Virus record (IMG/VR): IMGVR_UViG_3300043411_002968
Span: 1 to 21,243 of that record
Direction: 5' to 3' (one strand)
Source of the DNA: a virus
Length of the DNA: 21,243 nt
Shown here: piece by piece, positions 1 to 21,243 of the stretch
Numbering within the stretch: position 1 is the stretch's first letter
Layout of the letters: each line of letters opens with the position of its first letter
The notes under the pieces: generated by a model
The model's input: only the letters and a program-made list of their open reading frames with translations
Databases searched by the model: none
Told to the model about the DNA's origin: nothing
Translations under genes and position numbers: made by a program

Positions 1-765
1 AAATATTATGTTTGATAAATCTGTTTCATTCAAATCAAAATAATCAAGAATTCCTTCAACAATTTCTTTTGTAACGTCCCATAAAAAATCAGGGTTTTGA
101 TAAGGCGATTTATCAGCTGTAGTTGAGTCATTACCTACAATTTTTGATAGTAAATTATTATCCAAAGGCATTAATTCTTCCATAATAATTATTGCGTAAT
201 TATTTTCTGGATTTAAAACATCTTTATATGGTGAATTTGAAGGAGAATCATCATCATCATCCCAAAAGTTTCTTTTAACTTTAATTTTATTAAAATCTTC
301 TTGATAGTTAATTTTGTATATCTTTGGCAAATATTTTTTAAGTGCAGGAACAACTGAACTTGAGGCATCTAATATATCTTCCCAATTTTTGACTTCTTTA
401 ATTCCATCTTCATAAAGAATAACTTTGGCCACAGCAGGTTTACCTTGATAAACTCCTCTAAAGACAGTTCCAAATGAACCCTGACCAAGAATAATTGATT
501 TTCCTCCAGCTTCTACTGGGTGAAAGTCTTCTTTTTTTAGTATGTTTGGAAAAGCACCTCTTTCAAAAGGAGGATGTGATTGCATTTTATTGTGAAAATC
601 TTTGCCTCCAACGGGATGTATTTTTTTCAAGTACTCATCTTCTGAAATGGGTTCAGATTCAAAATATTTTTCATCTATCTCTTCAAGATCTTCTATTTCC
701 TGTGCTAATTTTGTATAACCAGAAATTTTCAAAGTATTTGATAATATTTTTAATAAATTATTCAT
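1..765 (-). CDS. Protein-kinase-like protein, third tandem copy (C-terminus beyond window)
   Basis: The reading frame is open from an ATG at 765 to the window edge (255 codons seen), so the catalytic C-terminus is missing here. Residues 1-29 form the helical N-terminal element shared with the two upstream kinases. An acidic linker with SEPISEDEYL (37-46) follows. Then comes a kinase N-lobe: glycine-rich loop GQGSFG (94-99), VAK with the predicted ATP-binding Lys114, and a hinge-like segment IIIMEELMPL before the helical part. The ATG overlaps the stop of the upstream kinase by 8 bases (ATGAATAA), and an AGGA sits 10 bases upstream inside that gene. It is probably co-translated with the other two copies. 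Kinase fold is supported by alignment with its paralogues; substrate and activity are unknown. Confidence 0.8.
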   Translation of the reverse strand, partial: MNNLLKILSNTLKISGYTKLAQEIEDLEEIDEKYFESEPISEDEYLKKIHPVGGKDFHNKMQSHPPFERGAFPNILKKEDFHPVEAGGKSIILGQGSFGTVFRGVYQGKPAVAKVILYEDGIKEVKNWEDILDASSSVVPALKKYLPKIYKINYQEDFNKIKVKRNFWDDDDDSPSNSPYKDVLNPENNYAIIIMEELMPLDNNLLSKIVGNDSTTADKSPYQNPDFLWDVTKEIVEGILDYFDLNETDLSNIIF

Positions 766-1897
766 TTCCAAAAAGTCCTGCATCTATAAACTTTATTGTA
801 CCATCGGCGCCCATCATTAAATTATCAACGTGTAAATCATTCCATTTAACTCCGGCACTTCCCAACATTAGTAAGGCTTCGTAAAGTTCTTTTGTTTCTG
901 AACGATGCTCCCAAACTGGAGAATAATATTCGTAATCATGAAAATCCTTTGGCGTCGTAATACCATAATATCCTCTTGGAACACCTGGAACTTTACCAAT
1001 TGAATTATTTAAAATTGCTTTTATAATAGGAAAAACCTTTTCTTTATATTTTTCTCTGAATGGATACTTTTGTAATAAAAAGTTCGATATATTTTCAGCC
1101 ATAATTGTTGACGAAGGAAAAGATTTGTCATCTAATTTTTGAGATGACAGCAATTTAAATATTTCATTTGTATTAAGTTGAAAATTTCGCATATCCATCC
1201 TAAAATATGGATTTTTTGAAATTCCATCAACAATTAATGATGAGACTGTATATAAGTAATCATCATCTTTAAATAAATCTTTAATCATTTTTGATTTATC
1301 TATCATAGGATTATCATCCATGTTTAAATAAATATCTTTTGGTAACTTAAATAATTTTTCCATAATGATTATTTCATAATTTATTCCGAAAACATATTGA
1401 TTTTTTTCTTTTTTCAATACGCCTTTATTTAAGTGATAAATAACAGGAAAATGTTTTTTTAAATTTTCTGGAAAACTTTGTGTTATTTGCAATATTTTTT
1501 GCCAGTTTTCAACTTCTCCATTTGAGTTTAAAATAATTTTTATGGCAGCTAATTTACCTTTATAAACTCCTTGGAAGACAGAACCATAAGAACCTCGACC
1601 TAACAAAGGTTTCTCTTCACCTGAAGAAACTATTTTAAAGCCTTCTTGCTCGGCAATTTTATTATAATCATCAGCTAAATCCGAATCCGTCATATAAGAT
1701 TTTTGAGATACTTGATTTAAATATTCCTCTTCAGATATAGGTTCCGAGCCAAACTCCAAAGCGTCTTCTTCTTGAAGTTTATCGTGTTCTATTTCCCAAG
1801 GAAGAACATCTTCTTCCAGATTTTCAACTTCATTAGCCTCTTTGTGAAGATTATGAGTATATAAATAATTATATAATTTTTTTAAAAAATTATTCAA
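758..1897 (-). CDS. Protein-kinase-like protein, second tandem copy
   Basis: A 379-aa eukaryotic-like/atypical protein kinase fold. Residues 1-29 are the shared N-terminal helical element and SEPISEEEYL is at 51-60. The glycine loop GRGSYG is at 100-105 and the predicted ATP-binding Lys at 120 (AAIK). The catalytic segment WNDLHVDN (352-359) gives Asp354 and Asn359, and IDAG gives the metal-binding Asp372. The usual lysine two residues after the catalytic Asp is His, as in APH-like and atypical kinases. The protein ends only 7 residues after that Asp, so no activation loop or helices follow it. I chose the TTG at 1897 over the ATG at 1939: it gives MNNFLKK, matching the third copy, and overlaps the previous stop by 8 bases (TTGAATAA) exactly as the next junction does. 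The ATG would add 14 residues. Confidence 0.82.
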   Translation of the reverse strand: MNNFLKKLYNYLYTHNLHKEANEVENLEEDVLPWEIEHDKLQEEDALEFGSEPISEEEYLNQVSQKSYMTDSDLADDYNKIAEQEGFKIVSSGEEKPLLGRGSYGSVFQGVYKGKLAAIKIILNSNGEVENWQKILQITQSFPENLKKHFPVIYHLNKGVLKKEKNQYVFGINYEIIIMEKLFKLPKDIYLNMDDNPMIDKSKMIKDLFKDDDYLYTVSSLIVDGISKNPYFRMDMRNFQLNTNEIFKLLSSQKLDDKSFPSSTIMAENISNFLLQKYPFREKYKEKVFPIIKAILNNSIGKVPGVPRGYYGITTPKDFHDYEYYSPVWEHRSETKELYEALLMLGSAGVKWNDLHVDNLMMGADGTIKFIDAGLFGNE

Positions 1898-2984
1898 TTT
1901 TATAAAGTCCCATATCAATAATTTTGATATTACCATCATTTCCCATCATTAAATTATTTTCCTTAACATCGGCCCAAGATATGCCTAGTGAGGACATTTC
2001 TTCTAAAAATGATAACAATTGTTTTGTTTCCGGTAAATTACCAAAAAGTGGATTGTATTCTGTTGAATTAGGATCGTTATAATTTTTTTGTCCAGGAAAC
2101 CCTTCTTTAACTACGAACACTTTAATTAGACTTGTATTAAGTACTCTTTTAACTTTAATTAATTCACTACTCATGTCATATTCATTAACTACATAATTTG
2201 CAATATTATTAATGATATCATTATGACTATAAGAATTTATGTCACGCATTGAATACAAAACCTTAAATATTTCTTCTGGTGTAAGATCTTCAAAATAAAA
2301 CCATGAATCTAAATCTCTAGAAATCATTTTTGCCAAATCATATAAAAAATCTTCATCTTTAAGAGCAAGATTAAAGGATTCTTCCGATTTGTAATTGCCG
2401 ATTATCTCTCCAAGATGTTTATTTAATGGTTTTAATTCTTCCATCACTATGATTTCATATTGATAATGTTTGTCCACACCATCATTAGTAGGCGAAATAG
2501 AATCAACTTTAGATAAAAAAACTTGAGGGATATGCTTTCTTAAATTAGGAGATATTTTATCTTTAATAGACATTAACTTATGCCATTTTGGAGCCTCAAA
2601 ACCAAAATCATTAATAAATTTTTCAACAAAATCTTCAACCAAAACTATTTTTGCAACAACAGGCTGTCCTTTATAAATTCCTCGATAAACACGCCCAAAA
2701 GATCCTCTACCTATATATGAAGATTTACCTCCAGCCGAGACAGGCTTGAATCCTTCTTTAACAAAGATTTTACTAATAATATCCATACTAACATCTTCAT
2801 CATGCAAATCCGGATGAACCACTTGCTCTAAGTATTCATCTTCTGATATTGATTCAGGGCCAAATTCCTCAACAGCTTCTTGATGCCAAGACTCAGCATA
2901 TTCCTCTAAGTCTTTAATTTCTTGGGCAATTTTATGATAGTTGTTTTGAGTTAACCATTTTTTTAATTTGAAAAGAAATTTCAT
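1890..2984 (-). CDS. Protein-kinase-like protein, first tandem copy
   Basis: A 364-aa kinase-fold protein with the most canonical active site of the three. Residues 1-28 are the N-terminal helical element (LAxx-like IAQEIKDLEE at 19-28) and ESISEDEYLEQ is at 44-54. The glycine loop is GRGSFG (92-97) and the predicted ATP-binding Lys is 112 (VVAK). The catalytic segment WADVKENN (337-344) keeps Asp339, Lys341 and Asn344, equivalent to HRDxKxxN without the His-Arg. IIDMG gives Asp357 in place of DFG. The chain stops at 364, 7 residues past that Asp. The ATG at 2984 shares its A with the stop of the SOD-like gene (TAATG), and AGGA lies 8 bases upstream. Family membership is fairly sure. The partner or substrate is unknown. 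Confidence 0.85.
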   Translation of the reverse strand: MKFLFKLKKWLTQNNYHKIAQEIKDLEEYAESWHQEAVEEFGPESISEDEYLEQVVHPDLHDEDVSMDIISKIFVKEGFKPVSAGGKSSYIGRGSFGRVYRGIYKGQPVVAKIVLVEDFVEKFINDFGFEAPKWHKLMSIKDKISPNLRKHIPQVFLSKVDSISPTNDGVDKHYQYEIIVMEELKPLNKHLGEIIGNYKSEESFNLALKDEDFLYDLAKMISRDLDSWFYFEDLTPEEIFKVLYSMRDINSYSHNDIINNIANYVVNEYDMSSELIKVKRVLNTSLIKVFVVKEGFPGQKNYNDPNSTEYNPLFGNLPETKQLLSFLEEMSSLGISWADVKENNLMMGNDGNIKIIDMGLYKIE

Positions 2985-7459: not shown

Positions 7460-9715
7460 TTAAACTTTTTCTGTATACTTACACCCGTTTCTGTATTCCG
7501 AACAAGCCTTAAACTTTCCAAATTTACCATCTAACAATAGGATTTCTCCGGAAGAACATTTGGGGCATTTTTTTCCTGTAGACTCTCCCTTAGGAGAGTT
7601 CTTTTTTCCACCTTTTGTAAACTTCTTTTCTATTATCGCTCCATTTTCATCTAATGATCTGGAAAACTTACAAGACGGATACTTAGAGCAACCCACCCAA
7701 CTACCACCACCAAATTTTGATGGCCTTTTAACCAGACTACCCTTTTTGCAAGAAGGACAAGATTCTTCTAAAACTTCCTGTGCAGCTTTAACTTTAATAT
7801 TACCATCTTTATCCAAACTTCCTGTCCATTTACAATTAGGATGCGCCTTGCATGCCAAAAATTTTCCAAATTTAGATTTACGTTCTATAACCATTGAACC
7901 ACACTCAGGACATGGCAAACTAGTTTCCACTTGATTTTCTGTATAAGTTCCATCCTCATTAACACTTAATATATAGCCACATTTTGGATGGTTTTCACAT
8001 CCCAAAAAAACTCCATGTTCTGAAATTTTCTTAATCATCTTAGAACCATTATTGCATAATTTGCAGTCTATCTCTTGTTTGAAAAGAACTTTGTTTTTAT
8101 CCTTTTGAACATTTTGAATTGTTGATGTTAAATCGTCATAAAATTTATTTAAGACTGGAATGAATTCAATCTTTCCTAATGCAATATCATCAACTTCCTT
8201 CTCCATCACTGCTGTAAAATCTGGACTGGTAAGTTTTGGAAAATAATTTTCTAAATACTCACAGACCATAGCACCTATCTCAGTACCCTTCAGAGATTTT
8301 CCTTCGCGAACAATATATTTATGATCCACCAATCTTTCAATTGTTGCTGCATAAGTTGCGGGTCTACCTATGCCTTCCTTTTCCATTTTATCTACAAATG
8401 TTGGTTCAGTATATCTAGCTGGAGGTTTAGTGAAATGTTGTTCTGTAACAAATTTTTTAGATATGATTTCTTGACCAACCGTCATTGCTGGTAGACTTAC
8501 ATCTTTTGTGCTGGTCCCATATACCTTTAAAAATCCATCGAAAACAAGTACAGATCCTGTAGTTCTAAATTCATGAATATGAACCCCTTTATGCTCTAAT
8601 TTTACGGAAACTTGATCAAATTTTGCTGATGCCATTTGAGACGCCATAAATTTTGATTTTATTAAATCTAATAATTTATTTTCATCCGAACTTAAGTTCA
8701 TTGGCGTAGGTTCATATGTTGGTCTAATGGCTTCGTGAGCATCTTGTGCAGCATCCTTGGTATAAAGAATTGGACTTGGAGACAAGTAAGATTTTCCAAA
8801 TTGATTTTCAATCATGTCTCTAAGCTCTTCAATCTTTTTTGGCTCAGTTCTAGTGCTATCAGTTCTATGATAAGTTATACATCCCGCCGTAAATAAATTT
8901 TGGGCTGCATCCATTACTCTTTTTGAGCTCCAACCAAATTTTGTTCCTGCTTCCTTTTGAAGGCTAGACGTTATAAACGGTGGACCTGGATCTCTATTTC
9001 TAGATTTTTGCTGATAATCTGTAACAATCAATTTAGACTTACAATCTTTTAAAATCTCGTCTACTTGACCTTTAGATGTAGGAACAATTTTAAGTCCATC
9101 TGAGCCATAAAATTCTGCATCGAAATCTAAATTTGTTTTAGACACTATTGTCCAATATTCTTCCTCTTTAAATTTTTTAATATCTCTTTCACGATCAATA
9201 ATATATTTTAGGGCTGCCGATTGAACACGACCAGCAGAAGTGTTCCGAAGACCTTTAGACCACATTAAAGGGCTAATTTTGAAACCAACAACCCTATCCG
9301 TCATTCTCCGAACTTGCTGAGCTTTATTTAAGTTTTCATTAAAACCTGTTGGATTTTTCATTTCTTTTTCAATAGAGTCTTTTGTTAATTCTTTAAAGAC
9401 AACTCTATGAAATGTCTTACCTTTTTTAGGTAAGACTTCTAAAAGAGAAAACCCTATATTCTCACCCTCTCTATCTCCATCTGTTGCTATGTATATATCT
9501 TTGTGTTTCTTTACCTCTTCAACAAGCTTTTTAACCACATCATTTTTATCAAAATTAACAACATATTTAGGCGTCCAAGTTTCGACATCAATACCCATAC
9601 CTTTTTTATCTAAATCCATAATATGACCAACGCTAGCCATTACTACATAATTAGTGCCTAATATCTTGTTGATTTTACTAATTTTATTTGGAGATTCAAC
9701 TATAACTAGACTCAT
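7460..9715 (-). CDS. topA: Type IA DNA topoisomerase I
   Basis: A 751-aa full-length topoisomerase I that relaxes negatively supercoiled DNA through a 5'-phosphotyrosine link. The Toprim domain has LVIVESPNK (3-11) with Glu7 and ATDGDREGE (77-85) with Asp79/Asp81; most homologues have TDPDREGE. The catalytic loop ITYHRTDSTR (280-289) gives active-site Tyr282. EGIGRPATYAATIERL (447-462) closes the core. The C-terminus carries four tetracysteine zinc modules at about 551-580, 602-629, 653-683 and 717-746, like cellular TopA. I chose the ATG at 9715, giving MSLVIVES and 5 bases from GGAGG. A TTG at 9730 and an ATG at 9718 are also in frame. Full-size TopA is uncommon in phages. Confidence 0.95.
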   Translation of the reverse strand: MSLVIVESPNKISKINKILGTNYVVMASVGHIMDLDKKGMGIDVETWTPKYVVNFDKNDVVKKLVEEVKKHKDIYIATDGDREGENIGFSLLEVLPKKGKTFHRVVFKELTKDSIEKEMKNPTGFNENLNKAQQVRRMTDRVVGFKISPLMWSKGLRNTSAGRVQSAALKYIIDRERDIKKFKEEEYWTIVSKTNLDFDAEFYGSDGLKIVPTSKGQVDEILKDCKSKLIVTDYQQKSRNRDPGPPFITSSLQKEAGTKFGWSSKRVMDAAQNLFTAGCITYHRTDSTRTEPKKIEELRDMIENQFGKSYLSPSPILYTKDAAQDAHEAIRPTYEPTPMNLSSDENKLLDLIKSKFMASQMASAKFDQVSVKLEHKGVHIHEFRTTGSVLVFDGFLKVYGTSTKDVSLPAMTVGQEIISKKFVTEQHFTKPPARYTEPTFVDKMEKEGIGRPATYAATIERLVDHKYIVREGKSLKGTEIGAMVCEYLENYFPKLTSPDFTAVMEKEVDDIALGKIEFIPVLNKFYDDLTSTIQNVQKDKNKVLFKQEIDCKLCNNGSKMIKKISEHGVFLGCENHPKCGYILSVNEDGTYTENQVETSLPCPECGSMVIERKSKFGKFLACKAHPNCKWTGSLDKDGNIKVKAAQEVLEESCPSCKKGSLVKRPSKFGGGSWVGCSKYPSCKFSRSLDENGAIIEKKFTKGGKKNSPKGESTGKKCPKCSSGEILLLDGKFGKFKACSEYRNGCKYTEKV

Positions 9716-13198: not shown

Positions 13199-13987
13199 AT
13201 GAGAGATACCTTTGCAGAAATATTTTACTTCGTAACATTTTTATTTTTAATATCAATTATATGTTTTGCTGATAATAATAAAATGACAACATCTAAAGAA
13301 AATTATATATTACAAACTTCGATCGGTAGTTACACAAATTTAAAAAATAATAAAGATAGCCAAATATTTATTGATTCCGTTTTAAAATTAGACTACATAG
13401 ATGAAATGGATTCTGTATCTAGTGCCACAGGTTTCAGCGTCATCTATAAAGGAGACGATGATATTAGTTATATATTAACTAACGAACACTTTTGTGAAAA
13501 GAATATTTCCGGCGACAAAGGGACTTTTTATTATGAACTACCTAACGTTGAAATTTCGACAACGTCTAGGATATTCGTTGATTCCTTAAAGGTTGTTGCT
13601 TCAAAAAAAGCACAAGATTTATGTTTATTGTCAATGAATGGTTACATTAAACCTGTTAAACTTGCTCCTGATGGTTATGAAATATCTAGAATGGAGCCCA
13701 TTATAATTGTTGGAAGTCCCCATGAACAATTTCCTGTTGTTAGAGAGACTTTTATAACTAATACAGTTTCAATAAAAGAAGTTTTTAGTTGGATGAGTCT
13801 TAACGCTCCAGCTTTATTTATTTCAGATATTGTTTTGCCTGGAGAAAGTGGTAGCCCAATCTACAATAAAAAGGGTGATGTCATTGGCATAGTTGATGCT
13901 ACAATGTCAAATGGATCTATTGTGTTTGGAGGGGTAGGTATATCTTATGTTGATATAAAAAGTTTTTTAAAAGAAACTAGACTTTAA
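13199..13987 (+). CDS. Secreted trypsin-like serine protease
   Basis: A 262-aa chymotrypsin-fold serine protease. Residues about 7-24 are strongly hydrophobic and end FADNN, a signal peptide or membrane anchor, so it should be exported from the host cytoplasm or sit in the envelope. Catalytic triad: His97 in YILTNEHFC (91-99; TAAHC in trypsin), Asp140 in AQDLCLL, and Ser217 in LPGESGSPIYNKKGDVIGIV. There is no PDZ domain. AAGGAG lies 5 bases before the ATG. It stands alone on the plus strand, divergent from the fibre pair, and its 3' end overlaps the convergent gene by 11 bases. Possible roles are envelope attack, processing of fibre or envelope proteins, or lysis support; none is shown. Confidence 0.87.
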   Translation: MRDTFAEIFYFVTFLFLISIICFADNNKMTTSKENYILQTSIGSYTNLKNNKDSQIFIDSVLKLDYIDEMDSVSSATGFSVIYKGDDDISYILTNEHFCEKNISGDKGTFYYELPNVEISTTSRIFVDSLKVVASKKAQDLCLLSMNGYIKPVKLAPDGYEISRMEPIIIVGSPHEQFPVVRETFITNTVSIKEVFSWMSLNAPALFISDIVLPGESGSPIYNKKGDVIGIVDATMSNGSIVFGGVGISYVDIKSFLKETRL

Positions 13988-14457: not shown

Positions 14458-15795
14458 TTACATTACTTTGGCTGCGAATGTAGCTAATTTACTACGCTCT
14501 CCTTTCCTTAATGTAATGTGAGCCGAATGACCAAATTCTTTGAATAATTCTACCACTGATGAGAGCCCTGAATTATCTTGATTTAACGAAGGGGAATCTA
14601 TTTGTTCTAAATCTCCAGTCAAAATAATTTTTGAGCGATCACCCATTCTTGTTAACAACGCTTTAGCCTCATGATGAGTAATGTTTTGCGCCTCGTCTAT
14701 AATAAAAATGGTATCAGGTAAAGTTCTTCCTCGGATATATGTCATGGCCTCTACCTCTATAATACCTTTATCAATCATTAATTCTATATAAGAATTACTT
14801 TTACCACTATAAATTATATCTATATTATCGAATATTGGTTGTATCCAAGGAGCCATTTTTTCTTCCTTTGTTCCTGGTAAAAATCCAATATCCTTGCTTG
14901 TACTTTGAACTGGGCGTGATATGATTAACTTTTTATAAGTTTTATCATGAAGCATTTTTATAGCTGCCGCAATAGCTAACAATGTTTTTCCTGATCCAGC
15001 AAATCCAGCCATTGTAACTAAATGAATGTTTGGATCTAATAAAAATTCACAAGCTAAAGTCTGCTCCTTAGAACGTGGTGTAATTCCTTCCATAGAAAAT
15101 CCTTTTTCGCCTGAAATATATAATTTTCTAACTCTGGTTTCATTTTCAGCAATGGCTAATGCTGATGATTGACCTGATTTTAAAATCACGCCTTGATTTG
15201 GATAAAAATTACAATTAAATAATTCTACATTACCAACGCTATAGAATTCATCAATTTCATCTTTTGAAACTTCCACAATCTCAGTTCCACTAAATAATTG
15301 ATCTTCGCTTGAAAATTTTTTATGATTGTAATCTATTGATGGAATAGATAATGCATCACATTTAACACGTAATGCTATATCTTTACTAACCACAGTTACA
15401 TTTTTTCCATCTTTCATTAATTTGACGGCTACTGATATAATTCTATTATCATTTATATCTGCCATACCTGATGGTAATAGTGATAAATCAGAATCAGAAA
15501 CAATGTAAATTGTTTGGCCATTATCTAATAATATTCCTTCTGAAGCGTTTCCCATTCCTAAATATTTATCTAGATATCTATTAACATAACGACATGATGC
15601 CCCAACAGAATCGGACCTTGTTTTTAAAGTATCCAATTCTTCTAAAACTTCAATAGGTAAATAGACGTTGTGATCAGCAAAATCATGAATAGACTCGCCA
15701 TGTGCAGCCAAAACCGATGTATCAATTACGTAGTTTAAGCGCTCATTTTCCTGCAATAAATATGGTGACATTAACACTCCATTTATATCAAACAT
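14458..15795 (-). CDS. phoH: PIN-PhoH protein (RNA helicase/nuclease type)
   Basis: A 445-aa two-domain protein of the YlaK/PhoH2 type. The N-terminal PIN nuclease-like domain (about 20-160) has YVIDTSVLA (22-30) with Asp25, LPIEVLEELD (46-55) and the later acidic SDSDL and NDNRI. The C-terminal PhoH ATPase (about 240-445) has Walker A GFAGSGKT (264-271), SRPVQSTSKDIGFLPGTKEE (293-312), Walker B IFIIDEAQ (363-370) and LTGDLEQID (392-400). Cellular homologues unwind and cut RNA; PhoH is very frequent in marine phages, where its role is unsettled. The ATG overlaps the upstream stop by 8 bases (ATGTTTGA). Domain calls are secure. Confidence 0.93.
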   Translation of the reverse strand: MFDINGVLMSPYLLQENERLNYVIDTSVLAAHGESIHDFADHNVYLPIEVLEELDTLKTRSDSVGASCRYVNRYLDKYLGMGNASEGILLDNGQTIYIVSDSDLSLLPSGMADINDNRIISVAVKLMKDGKNVTVVSKDIALRVKCDALSIPSIDYNHKKFSSEDQLFSGTEIVEVSKDEIDEFYSVGNVELFNCNFYPNQGVILKSGQSSALAIAENETRVRKLYISGEKGFSMEGITPRSKEQTLACEFLLDPNIHLVTMAGFAGSGKTLLAIAAAIKMLHDKTYKKLIISRPVQSTSKDIGFLPGTKEEKMAPWIQPIFDNIDIIYSGKSNSYIELMIDKGIIEVEAMTYIRGRTLPDTIFIIDEAQNITHHEAKALLTRMGDRSKIILTGDLEQIDSPSLNQDNSGLSSVVELFKEFGHSAHITLRKGERSKLATFAAKVM

Positions 15796-16120
15796 TAATA
15801 TTCTCTTCTAAAATTGACCAATAATTTAATTCTATTTCGTAATAAAAACCTCCATTGTCTGTTTTTAATGTTAGTTTTGGACTGTCCCAAATACCTACAA
15901 CTTCACTTTCAGATTTAATCTGAACAAAACCGTTTCGTAAGTCCTCCAATATTTCAATCTTATTTTGAAATAAATGTAATACAAACAAAGATTTATCTTT
16001 ATTAAGTAATAACTGAATATCGATCCCTAAAAACAAAAGTAAATTTTCTATCCATTCATCTCTTTGTTCTTCTATGGCTTTTTGATAGCCAAATCGATCA
16101 GTCATTAATGTAATTTTCAT
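15788..16120 (-). CDS. Hypothetical protein
   Basis: A 110-aa protein that I do not recognise. It has a short N-terminal helix (QKAIEEQRDEWIENLLLFLG, 13-32) followed by beta strands (SLFVLHLFQNKIEIL, then FVQIKSESEVVGIW and a final FYYEIELNYW), a compact alpha/beta or beta-sandwich pattern. No catalytic motif is evident. The ATG at 16120 lacks a clear ribosome site; the ATG of MTDRFGY (16105) is an alternative. It overlaps phoH by 8 bases, so phoH translation probably depends on it. Confidence 0.6.
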   Translation of the reverse strand: MKITLMTDRFGYQKAIEEQRDEWIENLLLFLGIDIQLLLNKDKSLFVLHLFQNKIEILEDLRNGFVQIKSESEVVGIWDSPKLTLKTDNGGFYYEIELNYWSILEENINV

Positions 16121-16196: not shown

Positions 16197-16904
16197 TTAT
16201 TCTATTCTTTTGACCTTCCATATACCAAAAATTAAGCTGTTTGTATGTTTTTTTGAATGTGTGCAAAGTCTTCTACTTATTGACATTGGTGAGCAACCTA
16301 TCTTTTTAGACATTTCTTTTAATGATTCTGTTATAAAAACATCATTCGTTTGTATATTCTCTGCCATTATTCTAGATATAAATCCTGGGTTGTTTTTACC
16401 TGTTAAAGATTTTTTTATTTTTTCCTTTGAGAAATCAGAATGTTTTTTTCCTAAATGAGCTAAACGATTTTTTTCTTTAGCTTCTACTGTGTGTTTCTTA
16501 CCCTTAAAAGCTTTGCTTACTTTTAAACGAGATTCTTTTGATAATCTCAAACCAAACATTGGGCTTGTTGCATTATGAGCTATATTATAGTATAGCTTGC
16601 TATGATTATTAAGTAAGAATATTTCATCAAGATATTTTTGTTCTATGTCCAAGCATTGATTTATTTCGCAAAATTCAATAATTTTAAATTCAAAGTTATC
16701 TTTGCCGCATTTATTAAAAGATCTCTGTAAATATTTGTTAGTATGCTTATTTCTCTCTAGCATGTAAAAATGATACCTGGCTCGCCTCCTAAATATTTTA
16801 GCAGAGCCAAGATATTTTTTTCCATTTTTTAAATTAATAATTATATATATACCACCTTTGTCTAGGTCTTCATCTTCGCCATGATAATACCTTACTTTGA
16901 CCAA
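16197..16904 (-). CDS. GIY-YIG homing endonuclease
   Basis: A 235-aa free-standing GIY-YIG nuclease. The signature is GGIYIII then KKYLGSA (YLG replaces YIG). The conserved Arg/His region is FRRRARYH, the catalytic Glu is in DIEQKYLDEI, and YYNIAHNA follows. Next are NUMOD3-type DNA-binding motifs (SPMFGLRLSKESRLKVSKAF, then GKKHSDFSKEKIKKSLTGKNNP) and a C-terminal helix-turn-helix (EMSKKIGCSPMSISRRL). There is no ATG near the 5' end. I take the TTG at 16904, 7 bases after GAGG; a TTG at 16910 is the other option. Either start lies inside the last codons of nrdB in another frame. It cuts DNA to spread itself; no intron core is visible around it. Confidence 0.87.
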   Translation of the reverse strand: MVKVRYYHGEDEDLDKGGIYIIINLKNGKKYLGSAKIFRRRARYHFYMLERNKHTNKYLQRSFNKCGKDNFEFKIIEFCEINQCLDIEQKYLDEIFLLNNHSKLYYNIAHNATSPMFGLRLSKESRLKVSKAFKGKKHTVEAKEKNRLAHLGKKHSDFSKEKIKKSLTGKNNPGFISRIMAENIQTNDVFITESLKEMSKKIGCSPMSISRRLCTHSKKHTNSLIFGIWKVKRIE

Positions 16905-17851
16905 CCCCAATCCTCGCCACTTAATCCGGCTGCGCTATAGTCTGTAACAGTGCCTTCAAAGAAATTTTTAAATGAGTCTCCATTAATAATCCAATCTAAC
17001 CATGGCAAAGGATTTTCAACAATATTCCAATTTGCTTTTAAACCCAAACCGTTCAATCTACGATCAGCAATATATCGAATGTATTGTTTAACTTCTTCTT
17101 TTGTTAAACCATCAATATCACCCATTGAATATGTTAAATCAATAACTTTATCTTCCAAAGCAACGGCATCTATAAACATTTGATAAATAGAGGCTTTAAA
17201 TTTATCATTAACAACCCTTGAGTGCTCTTGACAAAATTCTCTAAAAAGTCTAGTCATGCCCTCAACATGAAGAGTTTCATCCCTAATACTCCATTCAACA
17301 ATCTCACACATTCCTTTCATTTTACCAAATCTTTGATAATTCAGTAACATAACGAATGCACTAAATAACGACATCCCCTCATTACAGGTGGTCTGAGCTA
17401 AAGACTTGCCTAATCCTGTTAACGTTGTTACATCATTATTTTGCATAAATTCTATTTTAGATCTTAATTCATGATATTCTAAAAATGTACTGTACTCACT
17501 ATCAGGAAAACCTAAAGTATCGTTTAATAAAGCATAGGCCCTTTGATGTGTCCCCTCTCTGTTTGCAAAACTTAGTAACATATTTCTGATTTCATTGTTT
17601 TTAAATTTTGGAATAAATAAATCGCAATAATTACCGCCAACAGTAACGTCAGTTTGTGTAAACAGTCTTAAAATTTGAGTGATGTGATTTTTTTCTTCTG
17701 GTTTAATAGCTCCAACTTTCCATTGGTTTATATCTTCTTGCAATTTTGCTTCCCAGCTGCCCCAATGAATCTTTTCATGAGATTCAGCCAACTCCATTGC
17801 CCATGGGTATTTAAAAGGCTTATATGTTTCTGATGATTCTAACATTGACAT
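16892..17851 (-). CDS. nrdB: Ribonucleotide reductase small subunit, class Ia
   Basis: A 319-aa ferritin-like R2 subunit that holds the diiron-tyrosyl radical cofactor for NrdA. Predicted ligands, matching E. coli R2 in spacing, are Asp68, Glu99, His102 (REGTHQRAY), Glu158 (NEGMSLF), Glu192 and His195 (RDETLH). The radical tyrosine is Tyr106. The C-terminal tail VTDYSAAGLSGEDWGWSK is the same length as in the TEYSRA-type R2 family, so the protein looks complete, although a C-terminal Lys is unusual. The ATG at 17851 lies within the 3' end of the upstream homing-endonuclease gene (13-base overlap). Its GGAG (17860-17863) is coded inside that gene. The 3' end overlaps the GIY-YIG gene. Confidence 0.95.
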   Translation of the reverse strand: MSMLESSETYKPFKYPWAMELAESHEKIHWGSWEAKLQEDINQWKVGAIKPEEKNHITQILRLFTQTDVTVGGNYCDLFIPKFKNNEIRNMLLSFANREGTHQRAYALLNDTLGFPDSEYSTFLEYHELRSKIEFMQNNDVTTLTGLGKSLAQTTCNEGMSLFSAFVMLLNYQRFGKMKGMCEIVEWSIRDETLHVEGMTRLFREFCQEHSRVVNDKFKASIYQMFIDAVALEDKVIDLTYSMGDIDGLTKEEVKQYIRYIADRRLNGLGLKANWNIVENPLPWLDWIINGDSFKNFFEGTVTDYSAAGLSGEDWGWSK

Positions 17852-18987
17852 TTTAATTTCTCCAATTCATTTTTAAGAATATTTTCTATATTCTTATAGT
17901 TTTGATAATTTATTCTTAATAATTTTAAACTATTATTCTCACAATATTTTTGCTTAATGTTATCATTGGCTTGCAATTTCTTAAAAGAATTTTCACCACC
18001 AAAACGACTTACTGGATGGTAGTGTTGTATTCCGTCATACTCGATGCATAAGTTATACTCTTGTAAATAAAAGTCAAAAGGCATCTTTTTTAATTCTGGA
18101 AATCTTTTTTGACGATTATATTTTATTGATTTTTTTTCTAACCATAGCGCTATTCTTTTTTCACCCTTACTTTCAAAACATAATGGACACCCATTACCAT
18201 TTAAATGACCTAATGGGGTTTGATTAAACGTACCGTGTGTCAGACATATAATTGAAATATTAGTTTTATTATTGACATAATTAACCAGCGAATAATCATA
18301 TTTATTTGCATGAATCTTAAAGGACTCATTTAAAAAGAATTCCTTTGATTTTGCCAAACTTGTTCCGCAAGAAATTCTACCACACTTTGGGCACCCACTC
18401 CCAGATAAGTGGGTATATGGTTTTTGTTTAAAACCACCATGCTGATGGCACACAATATTAATTTCCTTAAACGAATTAATGTAATTAACTTTAGAATAAT
18501 CATATTTATCATTATGTATGATAATTGCATCGTTAATAAAAGATTCAAGACTTTTACTCATAGATTTCTTTGCTTGAATTTTTCCACATGTTGGACAACC
18601 ACATCCTTGCAAGTGTGAATTAGGTGATTGCAAAAAAGAACCATGTTCAAGACAAATTATTTCAATTTTCATATTACTTTTTATATAAACCGCTTTGGAA
18701 TAATTAAATTTATCGCCATGAACTTTGATGGCTTTTTTTATAAATTCATCAATAGAAGAAGACTTACAGTTTGTAGTAATTTCTACACCACATTTTTTAC
18801 ATCCATGACCATTCAAATGGTCATAAGGTTTTTGTAGAAAGAAACCATGTTTATAACAGAAAATTTTTATTTTAGTATAATTATTAACATAATTGACTGT
18901 GTCATAATTATATTTATTATGATGTTTGTTTTGTGCCTCTAAAACAAAGGCACATAAATTTGTGTATCTCATCTTTATAAGACTCAT
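17839..18987 (-). CDS. Homing endonuclease with DUF723-like zinc repeats and EDxHD/Vsr-like nuclease domain
   Basis: A 382-aa protein inserted between nrdA and nrdB. Four repeats of about 65 residues (about 15-66, 77-134, 147-202, 214-270) each have a K[YF][ND]YSxVxYxN-like strand, a CxxHGxFxQxPxxHLxGxGC segment and a CxxC pair. They are probably small zinc-bound DNA-recognition units. The C-terminal domain CIEYDGIQHYHPVSRFGGE (314-332) with downstream NDNIKQKYC resembles the Vsr/EDxHD nuclease fold of I-Bth0305I-type free-standing homing endonucleases. I chose the ATG at 18987, which shares its A with the nrdA stop (TAATG), over a TTG at 19008 lying inside nrdA. It should cut allelic phage genomes lacking it near nrdA/nrdB. 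Confidence 0.88.
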   Translation of the reverse strand: MSLIKMRYTNLCAFVLEAQNKHHNKYNYDTVNYVNNYTKIKIFCYKHGFFLQKPYDHLNGHGCKKCGVEITTNCKSSSIDEFIKKAIKVHGDKFNYSKAVYIKSNMKIEIICLEHGSFLQSPNSHLQGCGCPTCGKIQAKKSMSKSLESFINDAIIIHNDKYDYSKVNYINSFKEINIVCHQHGGFKQKPYTHLSGSGCPKCGRISCGTSLAKSKEFFLNESFKIHANKYDYSLVNYVNNKTNISIICLTHGTFNQTPLGHLNGNGCPLCFESKGEKRIALWLEKKSIKYNRQKRFPELKKMPFDFYLQEYNLCIEYDGIQHYHPVSRFGGENSFKKLQANDNIKQKYCENNSLKLLRINYQNYKNIENILKNELEKLKCQC

Positions 18988-20780
18988 TAGCCTTGACAGG
19001 CTACACAATCGTCTCCTTCTTTACTTACATAGTCGGCCAAAGGTTTTCTTTCTACCTTATATGAAACCTTATCTGCTGTTACACCAGCATTAGTTCTTAA
19101 ATAATATAAACCTTTTAGTTTTTCCTTCCAAGCCTTCAAGTGTACTTGGTTGACATAACTACGACTTGCGCCTGCTGGGAAAAATAAATTTACACTTTGA
19201 CCTTGACAAACAAATTTTTGCCTATCTGCTGCGTGAGCAACAACCCAATTCTGATCAATTTCAAAGGCGGTTTTGAATACATCCTTATCTTCATCAGACA
19301 TAAAATCCAAATGTTGTACGGATCCCATATTAGTGATAATTGATGGCCAAACTTTTTCTAACCATTCATCCTTATTTTCAACAGAAGGAGCATATTTATT
19401 AATCAGTAATTGTTCTAAATACTTATTCTTAACAAAGAAACTTCCCGCTCTAGTTCTATGGACATAGGCATTACTTTTCCATGGTTCAATACTTGGCGAT
19501 GCTGCAAGTATTATTCCACTGTTAGCGTTAGGAGCAATTGCAAGCAAATGAGCATTCCTTTTTCCTGAGCCAATTCCATCTAAATATTCTCCTCGTTCTT
19601 GAGCCAACAATTCTGTTTCCATCTCTGCCTGCTCTTTTATATGGCTAAATATTTGAAGATTAATAACTTTAGCTAAACTAGAATCCCATGGTATCATATT
19701 TTTTTGAAGATATGAATGAAAACCCATCGCTCCTATACCAATACTTCTTTCTCTTGCCGCTGAGAATTTCGCTTTAATAAGAACATCAGGAGCGTTGTCA
19801 ATAAAAAATTGCAAAACATTATCTAAAAATCTAACTAAATCTCTAACAATCGAGGTTTCCTTCCATTCATTAAATGTTTCCAAATTCAATGAACTCAGAC
19901 AACAAACAGCTGTTCGTTCCGAAGATGTTGGTAATTCTATTTCTTGACAAAGATTTGAATTATTTATTTTTAAACCCAATTTTTTAAGTGGATCTGGCAA
20001 ACACCTATTAGCCTCATCAATAAAATGCATGTAAGGCTCACCAGTCCTAAATCTAATTTCCAAAATTCTTTGCCATAAATCTCTAGCTTTGGTTGTGCCT
20101 CTAATAGTTTTATCATTAGGATCTATAAAATTCCAATCCTCATCCTTGGAAACAGCTTCCATAAATTCATCGGTAATATTTATTGCATTATGAAGATTAA
20201 AACATTTACGATTAGGATCTCCTCCGGTTGGTAATCTTATATTTAAGAATTCTTCTAAATCGGGATGACTAATGTCAAGATATGCGGCATATGATGCTCT
20301 ACGTGTAGTGCCCTGCCTATATGCAGTAACATCAGCATCAATAGTTTTTAAAAATGGTATTGGACCTGGTGCCACATTACTTACACTTCTTATATTTGAC
20401 CAACCCGCTCCAATACCACCACCTTTTACTGATAACCATCTTATCTCTTCTGTATGAGCAATCAAGCTTTCTAGTGTATCATCTACCGACAATAGGTAGC
20501 AGCTAATTGGCAAAGCCTTTGTTTTTTGTCCTACTTGTGGTGCATTAGACAACACTGGGCTTGCATACATAAACCAGCCCTTAGATGCATAATCATATAT
20601 TCTCTGAGCTAGAGAAATATCTCCTGCACAATAAGCTAATGCGGCTCTAGCAAAAGATTCCTGAGGGCTTACCTCATCTTTTTGCTGATAATATTTACCA
20701 AGTAAATCTAGAGCAAAGTGATCTAACCCTTTATCTCGATCTAAGTCTATGGTAATTCCGTGATAATCCCTTAATTGCAT
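18987..20780 (-). CDS. nrdA: Ribonucleotide reductase large subunit, class Ia, without ATP-cone
   Basis: A 597-aa R1 subunit reducing ribonucleoside diphosphates to deoxy forms with NrdB. Active-site landmarks: Cys94 in ALPISCYLL, NLCQEI (276-281; Asn276, Cys278, Glu280), Cys293/294 in AVCCLSSLNL (second redox Cys), Tyr559-Tyr560 in LYYLRT (radical path), and CVAC at 592-595 as the C-terminal redox pair. IAPNANSGIILAASPSIEPW (414-433) is the conserved phosphate-binding region. It is short: about 150 residues fewer than E. coli NrdA, and the N-terminal ATP-cone that mediates dATP inhibition is absent. The ATG at 20780 is 4 bases after GGAGG; a GTG at 20837 would add 19 unlikely residues. Confidence 0.95.
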   Translation of the reverse strand: MQLRDYHGITIDLDRDKGLDHFALDLLGKYYQQKDEVSPQESFARAALAYCAGDISLAQRIYDYASKGWFMYASPVLSNAPQVGQKTKALPISCYLLSVDDTLESLIAHTEEIRWLSVKGGGIGAGWSNIRSVSNVAPGPIPFLKTIDADVTAYRQGTTRRASYAAYLDISHPDLEEFLNIRLPTGGDPNRKCFNLHNAINITDEFMEAVSKDEDWNFIDPNDKTIRGTTKARDLWQRILEIRFRTGEPYMHFIDEANRCLPDPLKKLGLKINNSNLCQEIELPTSSERTAVCCLSSLNLETFNEWKETSIVRDLVRFLDNVLQFFIDNAPDVLIKAKFSAARERSIGIGAMGFHSYLQKNMIPWDSSLAKVINLQIFSHIKEQAEMETELLAQERGEYLDGIGSGKRNAHLLAIAPNANSGIILAASPSIEPWKSNAYVHRTRAGSFFVKNKYLEQLLINKYAPSVENKDEWLEKVWPSIITNMGSVQHLDFMSDEDKDVFKTAFEIDQNWVVAHAADRQKFVCQGQSVNLFFPAGASRSYVNQVHLKAWKEKLKGLYYLRTNAGVTADKVSYKVERKPLADYVSKEGDDCVACQG

Positions 20781-20784
20781 TCCG

Positions 20785-20789
20785 CCTCC
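20785..20789 (-). promoter_or_regulatory. Ribosome binding site of nrdA
   Basis: GGAGG on the minus strand lies 4 bases before the ATG at 20780 and inside the longer GTG frame. It decides the start. The 106-base gap up to the DisA_N-like gene is AT-rich and probably holds the nrd promoter, but I see no clear boxes. Confidence 0.65.
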
Positions 20790-20886
20790 GAAACATCTTC
20801 GATAAATTATTATTTTAAATAGAACTAATTTTTCCACTTTTCTTTGTATTTAGATACCCAAAGATTAATAGGTTGATTTTTATAAT

Positions 20887-21228
20887 TTAATCTTCACCTT
20901 TATGATTTGGGTTATACTGCTCTGTGTATACACCATCTTTCCATATTCTAACTGTTAAAGTTTCTTCTGATAAAGTAAATGTCGCCAAAACATCATTTCT
21001 TGTTGAGAAACTACAAGCGGAAATATGTCTAGTTCCTGTGCCTTCTGGAATTTCAACTCCTGGATCATTAACCGTTAAATACACCCTCTCTGCCAATATT
21101 TGGCCATCTTGATTAATAAGAATAGCTCCATCATTACCAGACTCTAATATTTTCATAACCTCATCTTTAAATTGAGAAAAATTGATATTAAGATAAAGAT
21201 CTATCTTCTCTTTAGTTAAACTTCTCAT
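20887..21228 (-). CDS. DisA_N (diadenylate cyclase)-like domain protein, possibly 5'-incomplete
   Basis: A 113-aa protein resembling the DAC/DisA_N domain that makes c-di-AMP from two ATP. NDGAILINQDGQILAERVYL (32-51) fits the DGA motif and following strands. GTGTRHISA (63-71) fits GTRHRAA, but the last residue of the RHR motif is Ile. TLSEETLTVRIWKDGV (85-100) fits the conserved VSEExGxISVxxxG. The domain is near minimal length and has no membrane or helix-hairpin-helix part. The ATG at 21228 has a GAGG only 2 bases away, and the frame stays open to the window edge, so the real start may lie outside. It could be an active enzyme, a nucleotide sensor or a dead relative. Fold match is fairly convincing from motif order; activity is not. 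Confidence 0.65.
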   Translation of the reverse strand: MRSLTKEKIDLYLNINFSQFKDEVMKILESGNDGAILINQDGQILAERVYLTVNDPGVEIPEGTGTRHISACSFSTRNDVLATFTLSEETLTVRIWKDGVYTEQYNPNHKGED

Positions 21229-21243
21229 TCCCTCAACAACCTG

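Follow-up and report, generated by a model that had tools for sequence, protein, structure and literature searches.

The window analysed here is a viral contig of 21,243 bases, identical to the whole record IMGVR_UViG_3300043411_002968, and holds one gene encoding a diadenylate cyclase (DAC) domain protein. The gene (minus strand, 20887..21243, 118 codons) extends to the contig edge, which truncates it at the 5' end. The encoded protein matches the Pfam family PF02457 (DAC, DisA_N) with 45.6 bits (E = 6e-12; gathering score 27 bits), so that the family assignment proposed in an earlier note, made from the letters of the sequence, is borne out. The three motifs named in that note were likewise found in this minus-strand frame: DGA (residues 38-40 of the fragment, 21124..21132), GTRHI as the counterpart of the RHR motif (residues 70-74, 21022..21036) and LSEE (residues 91-94, 20962..20973). 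DGA is the motif that contacts ATP (PMC8573169, PMC6741144), and its D and G do not vary among the 21 viral and cellular DACs that were aligned. GTRHI is invariant in 12 of 12 viral proteins, and the S and E of LSEE are kept across viral and cellular DACs. Solved CdaA/DacA structures gave weak but consistent matches to the window protein in a single-sequence search. A profile that combined viral with cellular relatives clearly matched 20 distinct chains (best E = 8e-16), nearly all of which bear the name diadenylate cyclase, DisA or DAC-domain protein. In PHROGs, no match to the window DAC was obtained.

The reading frame of the DAC gene is open up to the contig end at position 21243. The ATG at 21228, taken as the start in the earlier note, encodes an internal methionine, part of a G-M-R motif that the relatives conserve, and is not the true start. 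The first residue of the fragment corresponds to approximately residue 65 of the 180 aa protein of the nearest relative, L007 (IMGVR_UViG_3300035698_027961, 7806-8348; 63-65% identity over the common part). The true start is accordingly expected about 64 codons past the contig edge, with about 64 amino acids absent from the fragment. Full-length viral relatives are 167 to 193 aa long and consist of the DAC domain and a short N-terminal tail, the protein ending approximately 15-20 residues beyond the domain. The description of the protein as reduced to the DAC domain, unreadable from the window itself, is therefore right for the intact relatives. A membrane segment is absent (maximum 19-residue hydropathy ≤1.57 in the viral DACs compared to 2.56 in the CdaA control).

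Relatives were retrieved from IMG/VR by profile searches, with profiles built first from viral and cellular DACs and then from viral DACs alone. The 16 DAC loci found represent 11 distinct viruses besides that of the window. Profiles were required for this: neither the window DAC nor nrdA, used as a single query sequence, matched anything in the viral contigs. The DACs of the 11 further viruses are 46-65% identical to that of the window, and PF02457 was above the gathering score in every viral relative tested (44.2-49.9 bits for the intact ones). The longest DAC-virus contigs comprise 395, 335, 332, 317, 236 and 223 kb. A terminase large subunit (phrog_675) was detected in four large contigs, where the Pfam terminase model alone was weak; this identifies the DAC viruses as tailed phages of jumbo size. 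Since the contigs also carry phage replication genes, the gene is phage-encoded, as had been proposed. The terminase gene of L124 contains a LAGLIDADG insert.

The conserved genes that follow the DAC gene in the window are, like it, encoded on the minus strand. Directly adjoining, as claimed before, is nrdA (18987..20837), encoding the large subunit of a class I ribonucleotide reductase (PF02867, 361.9 bits; 62% identity to its counterpart in L007). It is followed by nrdB for the small subunit (16892..17851; PF00268, 213.7 bits; 69% identical in L007), a small conserved ORF (15788..16120) and a gene encoding a protein with PhoH and PIN domains (14458..15795; PF02562, PF13638), which forms the right border of the conserved segment. 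Both the small ORF, located between reductase and PhoH, and PhoH are in place at every DAC locus whose contig extends there. In all 11 further viruses the order is PrkA kinase, YhbH/DUF444, SpoVR, DAC and ribonucleotide reductase, which makes the DAC gene the fourth of a PrkA-YhbH-SpoVR-DAC cluster upstream of the reductase and PhoH. The small ORF and PhoH come next in 10 of the 11, the contig of L096 stopping inside the reductase gene. A DnaB-type helicase is encoded upstream in 10 of the 11 as well; for L088, this position would lie outside the stretch fetched. The upstream genes of L007 were assigned with Pfam to PrkA (PF08298, 379.5 bits, and PF06798), DUF444 (270.8 bits) and SpoVR (346.7 bits), and according to NCBIfam the DUF444 protein is closest to the sporulation protein YhbH. 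Of this segment, the window covers the right half, from DAC over nrdA, nrdB and the small ORF to PhoH, and PrkA, YhbH and SpoVR are predicted to be encoded upstream of its DAC. In L078 the DAC gene starts with the last base of SpoVR and thereby overlaps its stop codon; in L075 the two genes are approximately 20 nt apart. This overlap and the short gap suggest that SpoVR and DAC share one operon. Promoter and terminator scans of L007 yielded sites no more numerous than in shuffled sequence.

Several further features were observed in the window and its relatives. The reductase located between DAC and PhoH belongs to class I in L007, L094 and L100 and to class II in L075, L088, L097 and L101; the class is swapped while the neighbours are constant (nrdA-nrdB segment of the window, 16892-20837). 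Two ORFs of putative homing endonucleases (minus strand, 16197-16910 and 17839-19008; GIY-YIG-like and treble-clef-like) are found in and beside this segment, and the reductase gene of L078 (8763-11945) harbors an intein with a LAGLIDADG endonuclease. Oversized gene products, namely SpoVR with 829-891 aa (L088, L091, L094, L099 and L101), PrkA with 1010 aa (L094) and PhoH with 796 aa (L090) and 1258 aa (L101), suggest that these genes contain inteins. A trypsin-like protease (PF13365) is encoded on the plus strand at 13199-13987, opposite to its neighbours, and has the same place in most relatives. At positions 1-2984 (minus strand), three tandem paralogue-like proteins are encoded, which have a 'SEPISEDEYL'-like N-terminus and an 'NLMMG' motif in common; the member at 1890-2984 contains a protein kinase domain (PF00069, 36 bits).

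A comparison of the DAC genes of the window and L007 resulted in a dN of 0.24 and a dS of 1.76, and other pairs of viral DACs gave dN values of 0.10-0.32 with mostly saturated dS. The low dN relative to dS points to purifying selection on the protein. Other phage records were searched by tblastn. Three viral DACs had no match in 50,697 phage records, and CdaA-type matches were obtained in 22 records. The four of these that were examined are 'UNVERIFIED' clones in which glmM is located just downstream of cdaA; they represent host chromosome and were rejected as phage DACs. A match on a Rhizobium plasmid (H6) lies inside an oxidoreductase-like gene, shows no DAC motif and was judged to be due to chance. 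As the CdaA matches examined turned out to be host DNA and the DAC gene of the window is cut off at the very end of its contig, host contamination or decay of an acquired gene might be suspected here, too. This explanation is nonetheless extremely improbable, because 11 other viral contigs of up to 395 kb hold the DAC gene between the same phage genes and the gene is under purifying selection.

Among the named families, DacZ (NF041371; Haloferax volcanii DacZ) was the best for each viral protein tested. The scores (37.6-52.9 bits; 37.6 for the window, NCBIfam) stay below the equivalog cut-off of 430 bits. The DacZ model is aligned from position 106-136 of 270 up to 268, i.e. over its last 60%, so the viral proteins are devoid of the N-terminal DacZ domain. 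Both kinds of protein are alike in this C-terminal catalytic part and in a third RHR position that is not R in the homologues seen, and in many cases share an NP motif upstream of DGA. They differ in length (167-193 aa compared to approximately 270 aa for DacZ) and in gene neighbourhood. Short haloarchaeal DACs (around 185 aa, e.g. WP_014030783) resemble the viral ones in their single soluble domain, similar length, the SA following the motif and the sequence VAAITLSEE. In contrast to the viral proteins, they have GTKH instead of GTRH, are encoded adjacent to transport genes (TrkA/permease) and are distant in the tree. Such GTKH DACs beside TrkA/permease genes were seen on haloarchaeal plasmids (L003 and L006), representing a second kind of haloarchaeal DAC besides DacZ. 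CdaA/DacA, the membrane DAC of Firmicutes and others, shares DGA, GTRH and SEE with the viral DAC, but has N-terminal membrane helices and adjacent ybbR and glmM genes; the viral DAC has neither and is flanked by SpoVR and the reductase. In DisA, the DAC domain is followed by a linker and HhH DNA-binding domains, both absent from the viral DAC. The model of CdaS, a DAC type with autoinhibitory helices at the N-terminus, was matched only weakly (18.9-19.6 bits, cut-off 225). Judged by its sequence, the viral DAC is a soluble protein of a single domain and is DacZ-like. A distant DAC (L080, 7818-8468; PF02457, 53.8 bits) is encoded on an 86-kb viral-labelled contig (IMGVR_UViG_3300031673_000011). 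It was left out of the viral group, which it does not resemble, and is by eye closest to a Micrarchaeota-type DAC; it has a C-terminal hydrophobic tail, as does the Micrarchaeota DAC L028.

In the DAC tree, the window protein and that of L007 are sisters (support 98/96). The viral proteins are set apart by a branch of modest support (83/56) with a long stem, and the tree leaves them without a resolved nearest cellular group. In a profile-profile comparison, the 12 viral DACs were aligned to cellular DACs over 140 columns with a probability of 99.4, and the viral profile matched DacZ-type proteins of the Desulfurellaceae phylum with up to 58 bits. All 12 viral DACs have D-G-[AS], G-T-R-H-I-[ST]-A-[AC]-S-F-S and F-T-L-S-E-[EQ] in common. 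The separate, long-stemmed branch and the invariant active-site residues of its own (GTRHISAASFS) would also fit an active cyclase forming another cyclic dinucleotide or oligonucleotide, which might act against nucleotide-based immunity of the host, as a decoy or counter-signal. However, known DAC enzymes use ATP, the Haloferax DacZ being specific for it (PMC6741144), and nothing near the DAC gene hints at counter-defence. Moreover, the constant gene order across the phage group favours a core function over a changeable anti-defence gene, and such a product appears improbable.

The RHR motif, which is typical of bacterial DACs, is incomplete in the viral set, where it reads RHI in 12 of 12 proteins. 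The PF02457 profile does not demand a complete RHR. In the cellular relatives, the motif was found as GTRHM (31), GTKHL (13) or GTKHM (7), a few others having A, H, T, S, N, L, I or R at the last position, in a sample that was seeded with the viral family and is tilted to DacZ types. Nearly all DacZ-type relatives have M, L, I, A, H, T, S or N at this third RHR position, and one Desulfurellaceae protein of the DacZ type has exactly GTRHI. An R at this variable position hence does not define the DAC family. The earlier note had read RHI as a possible sign of reduced or altered catalysis. Given that none of the viruses deviates from the I and that most DacZ types lack the second R, RHI is normal for this branch rather than a sign of decay, and the claim of weakened catalysis is not supported. 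It is further countered by the activity measured for an enzyme of the DacZ class, which was sampled here through other members: Haloferax DacZ forms c-di-AMP from ATP with Mn2+ in vitro (PMC6741144). The exchange of RHR for AAA, which abolishes the activity of M. tuberculosis DacA, changed all three residues (PMC3328451). DGA is present in the window and in all viral relatives except L096, which has DGS; this exception and the lack of the second R in all viral proteins weaken the reading as an active enzyme to some extent.

Possible receptors of c-di-AMP were searched for in the records of the DAC viruses. A c-di-AMP riboswitch was not detected above threshold, nor was a PstA-type receptor or a TrkA_C domain or TrkA_C-type receptor found. 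With none of these types found in the viruses, the receptor would be either a protein of the host or a component of the phage module that escaped recognition. Four large DAC phages encode a DHH phosphoesterase with weak likeness to NrnA-type enzymes; as a dedicated c-di-AMP hydrolase partner it was rejected, because the family is common (phrog_4771; 127 phage records). The outcome of the riboswitch, PstA-type and TrkA_C searches would be compatible with a catalytically dead DAC domain that is retained for nucleotide sensing or as a regulatory subunit, binding ATP or c-di-AMP and regulating PrkA or SpoVR. The missing second R in every viral protein, the DGS of L096 and the locking of the DAC gene to a kinase module point in the same direction. 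Such a role is considered unlikely, since the catalytic D, G, T, R, H, S and E are preserved in 12 diverged viruses and the same R is missing in almost all DacZ-type relatives, one DacZ enzyme being active all the same (PMC6741144).

Phage-borne SpoVR was also inspected for an accompanying DAC. PF02457 was not found in six SpoVR phage records, i.e. those of the Thermus phages phiYS40, MN1 and phiLo and of LR756502, LR756511 and LR745206. Like the DAC viruses, the Thermus phages and these huge phages carry SpoVR and, where annotated, a PrkA-type kinase; in the Thermus phages an additional conserved bacterial protein adjoins SpoVR. The jumbo phage RsoM2USA encodes PrkA and SpoVR (PMC8504454). 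A viral contig with PrkA, DUF444 and SpoVR (L119) has no DAC within 6 kb on either side. Among the SpoVR-carrying phages compared, the DAC is specific to this viral group. At 77 cellular DAC loci (651 kb), a sample dominated by haloarchaea and the Desulfurellaceae phylum, PrkA, DUF444 and SpoVR are absent within approximately 5 kb of the DAC gene. The pairing being absent near the sampled cellular DACs, it is the viral gene order that argues for a functional link between DAC and PrkA-YhbH-SpoVR. No report of a phage-encoded diadenylate cyclase was found in the open-licence literature.

Taken together, the gene probably encodes a soluble, stand-alone DacZ-like diadenylate cyclase, which is kept in large tailed phages and would produce c-di-AMP during infection along with the PrkA-YhbH-SpoVR module. 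Two DAC protomers would meet face to face, as known for DACs (PMC8573169), each presenting one ATP, and the two ATP would be condensed to c-di-AMP in the infected cell. The product might act on host targets in potassium, osmolyte and cell-wall balance, might control the PrkA-YhbH-SpoVR stress module encoded alongside, or both. The claim of activity is much stronger than that on the target of c-di-AMP. A complete second-messenger circuit of the phage, in which the DAC product controls PrkA-YhbH-SpoVR and c-di-AMP signalling is imposed, possibly on hosts without their own, is put forward only tentatively on the basis of gene order.

Some phage enzymes are known to destroy or sequester cyclic nucleotides. 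The fixation of the DAC gene in a group of large phages suggests that c-di-AMP synthesis belongs to their ordinary infection programme. PrkA, YhbH and SpoVR occur widely in bacteria, in settings that range from sporulation to starvation, and little is understood of what drives them. The constant place of the DAC gene behind these three offers a testable idea, namely that a nucleotide signal may drive them.
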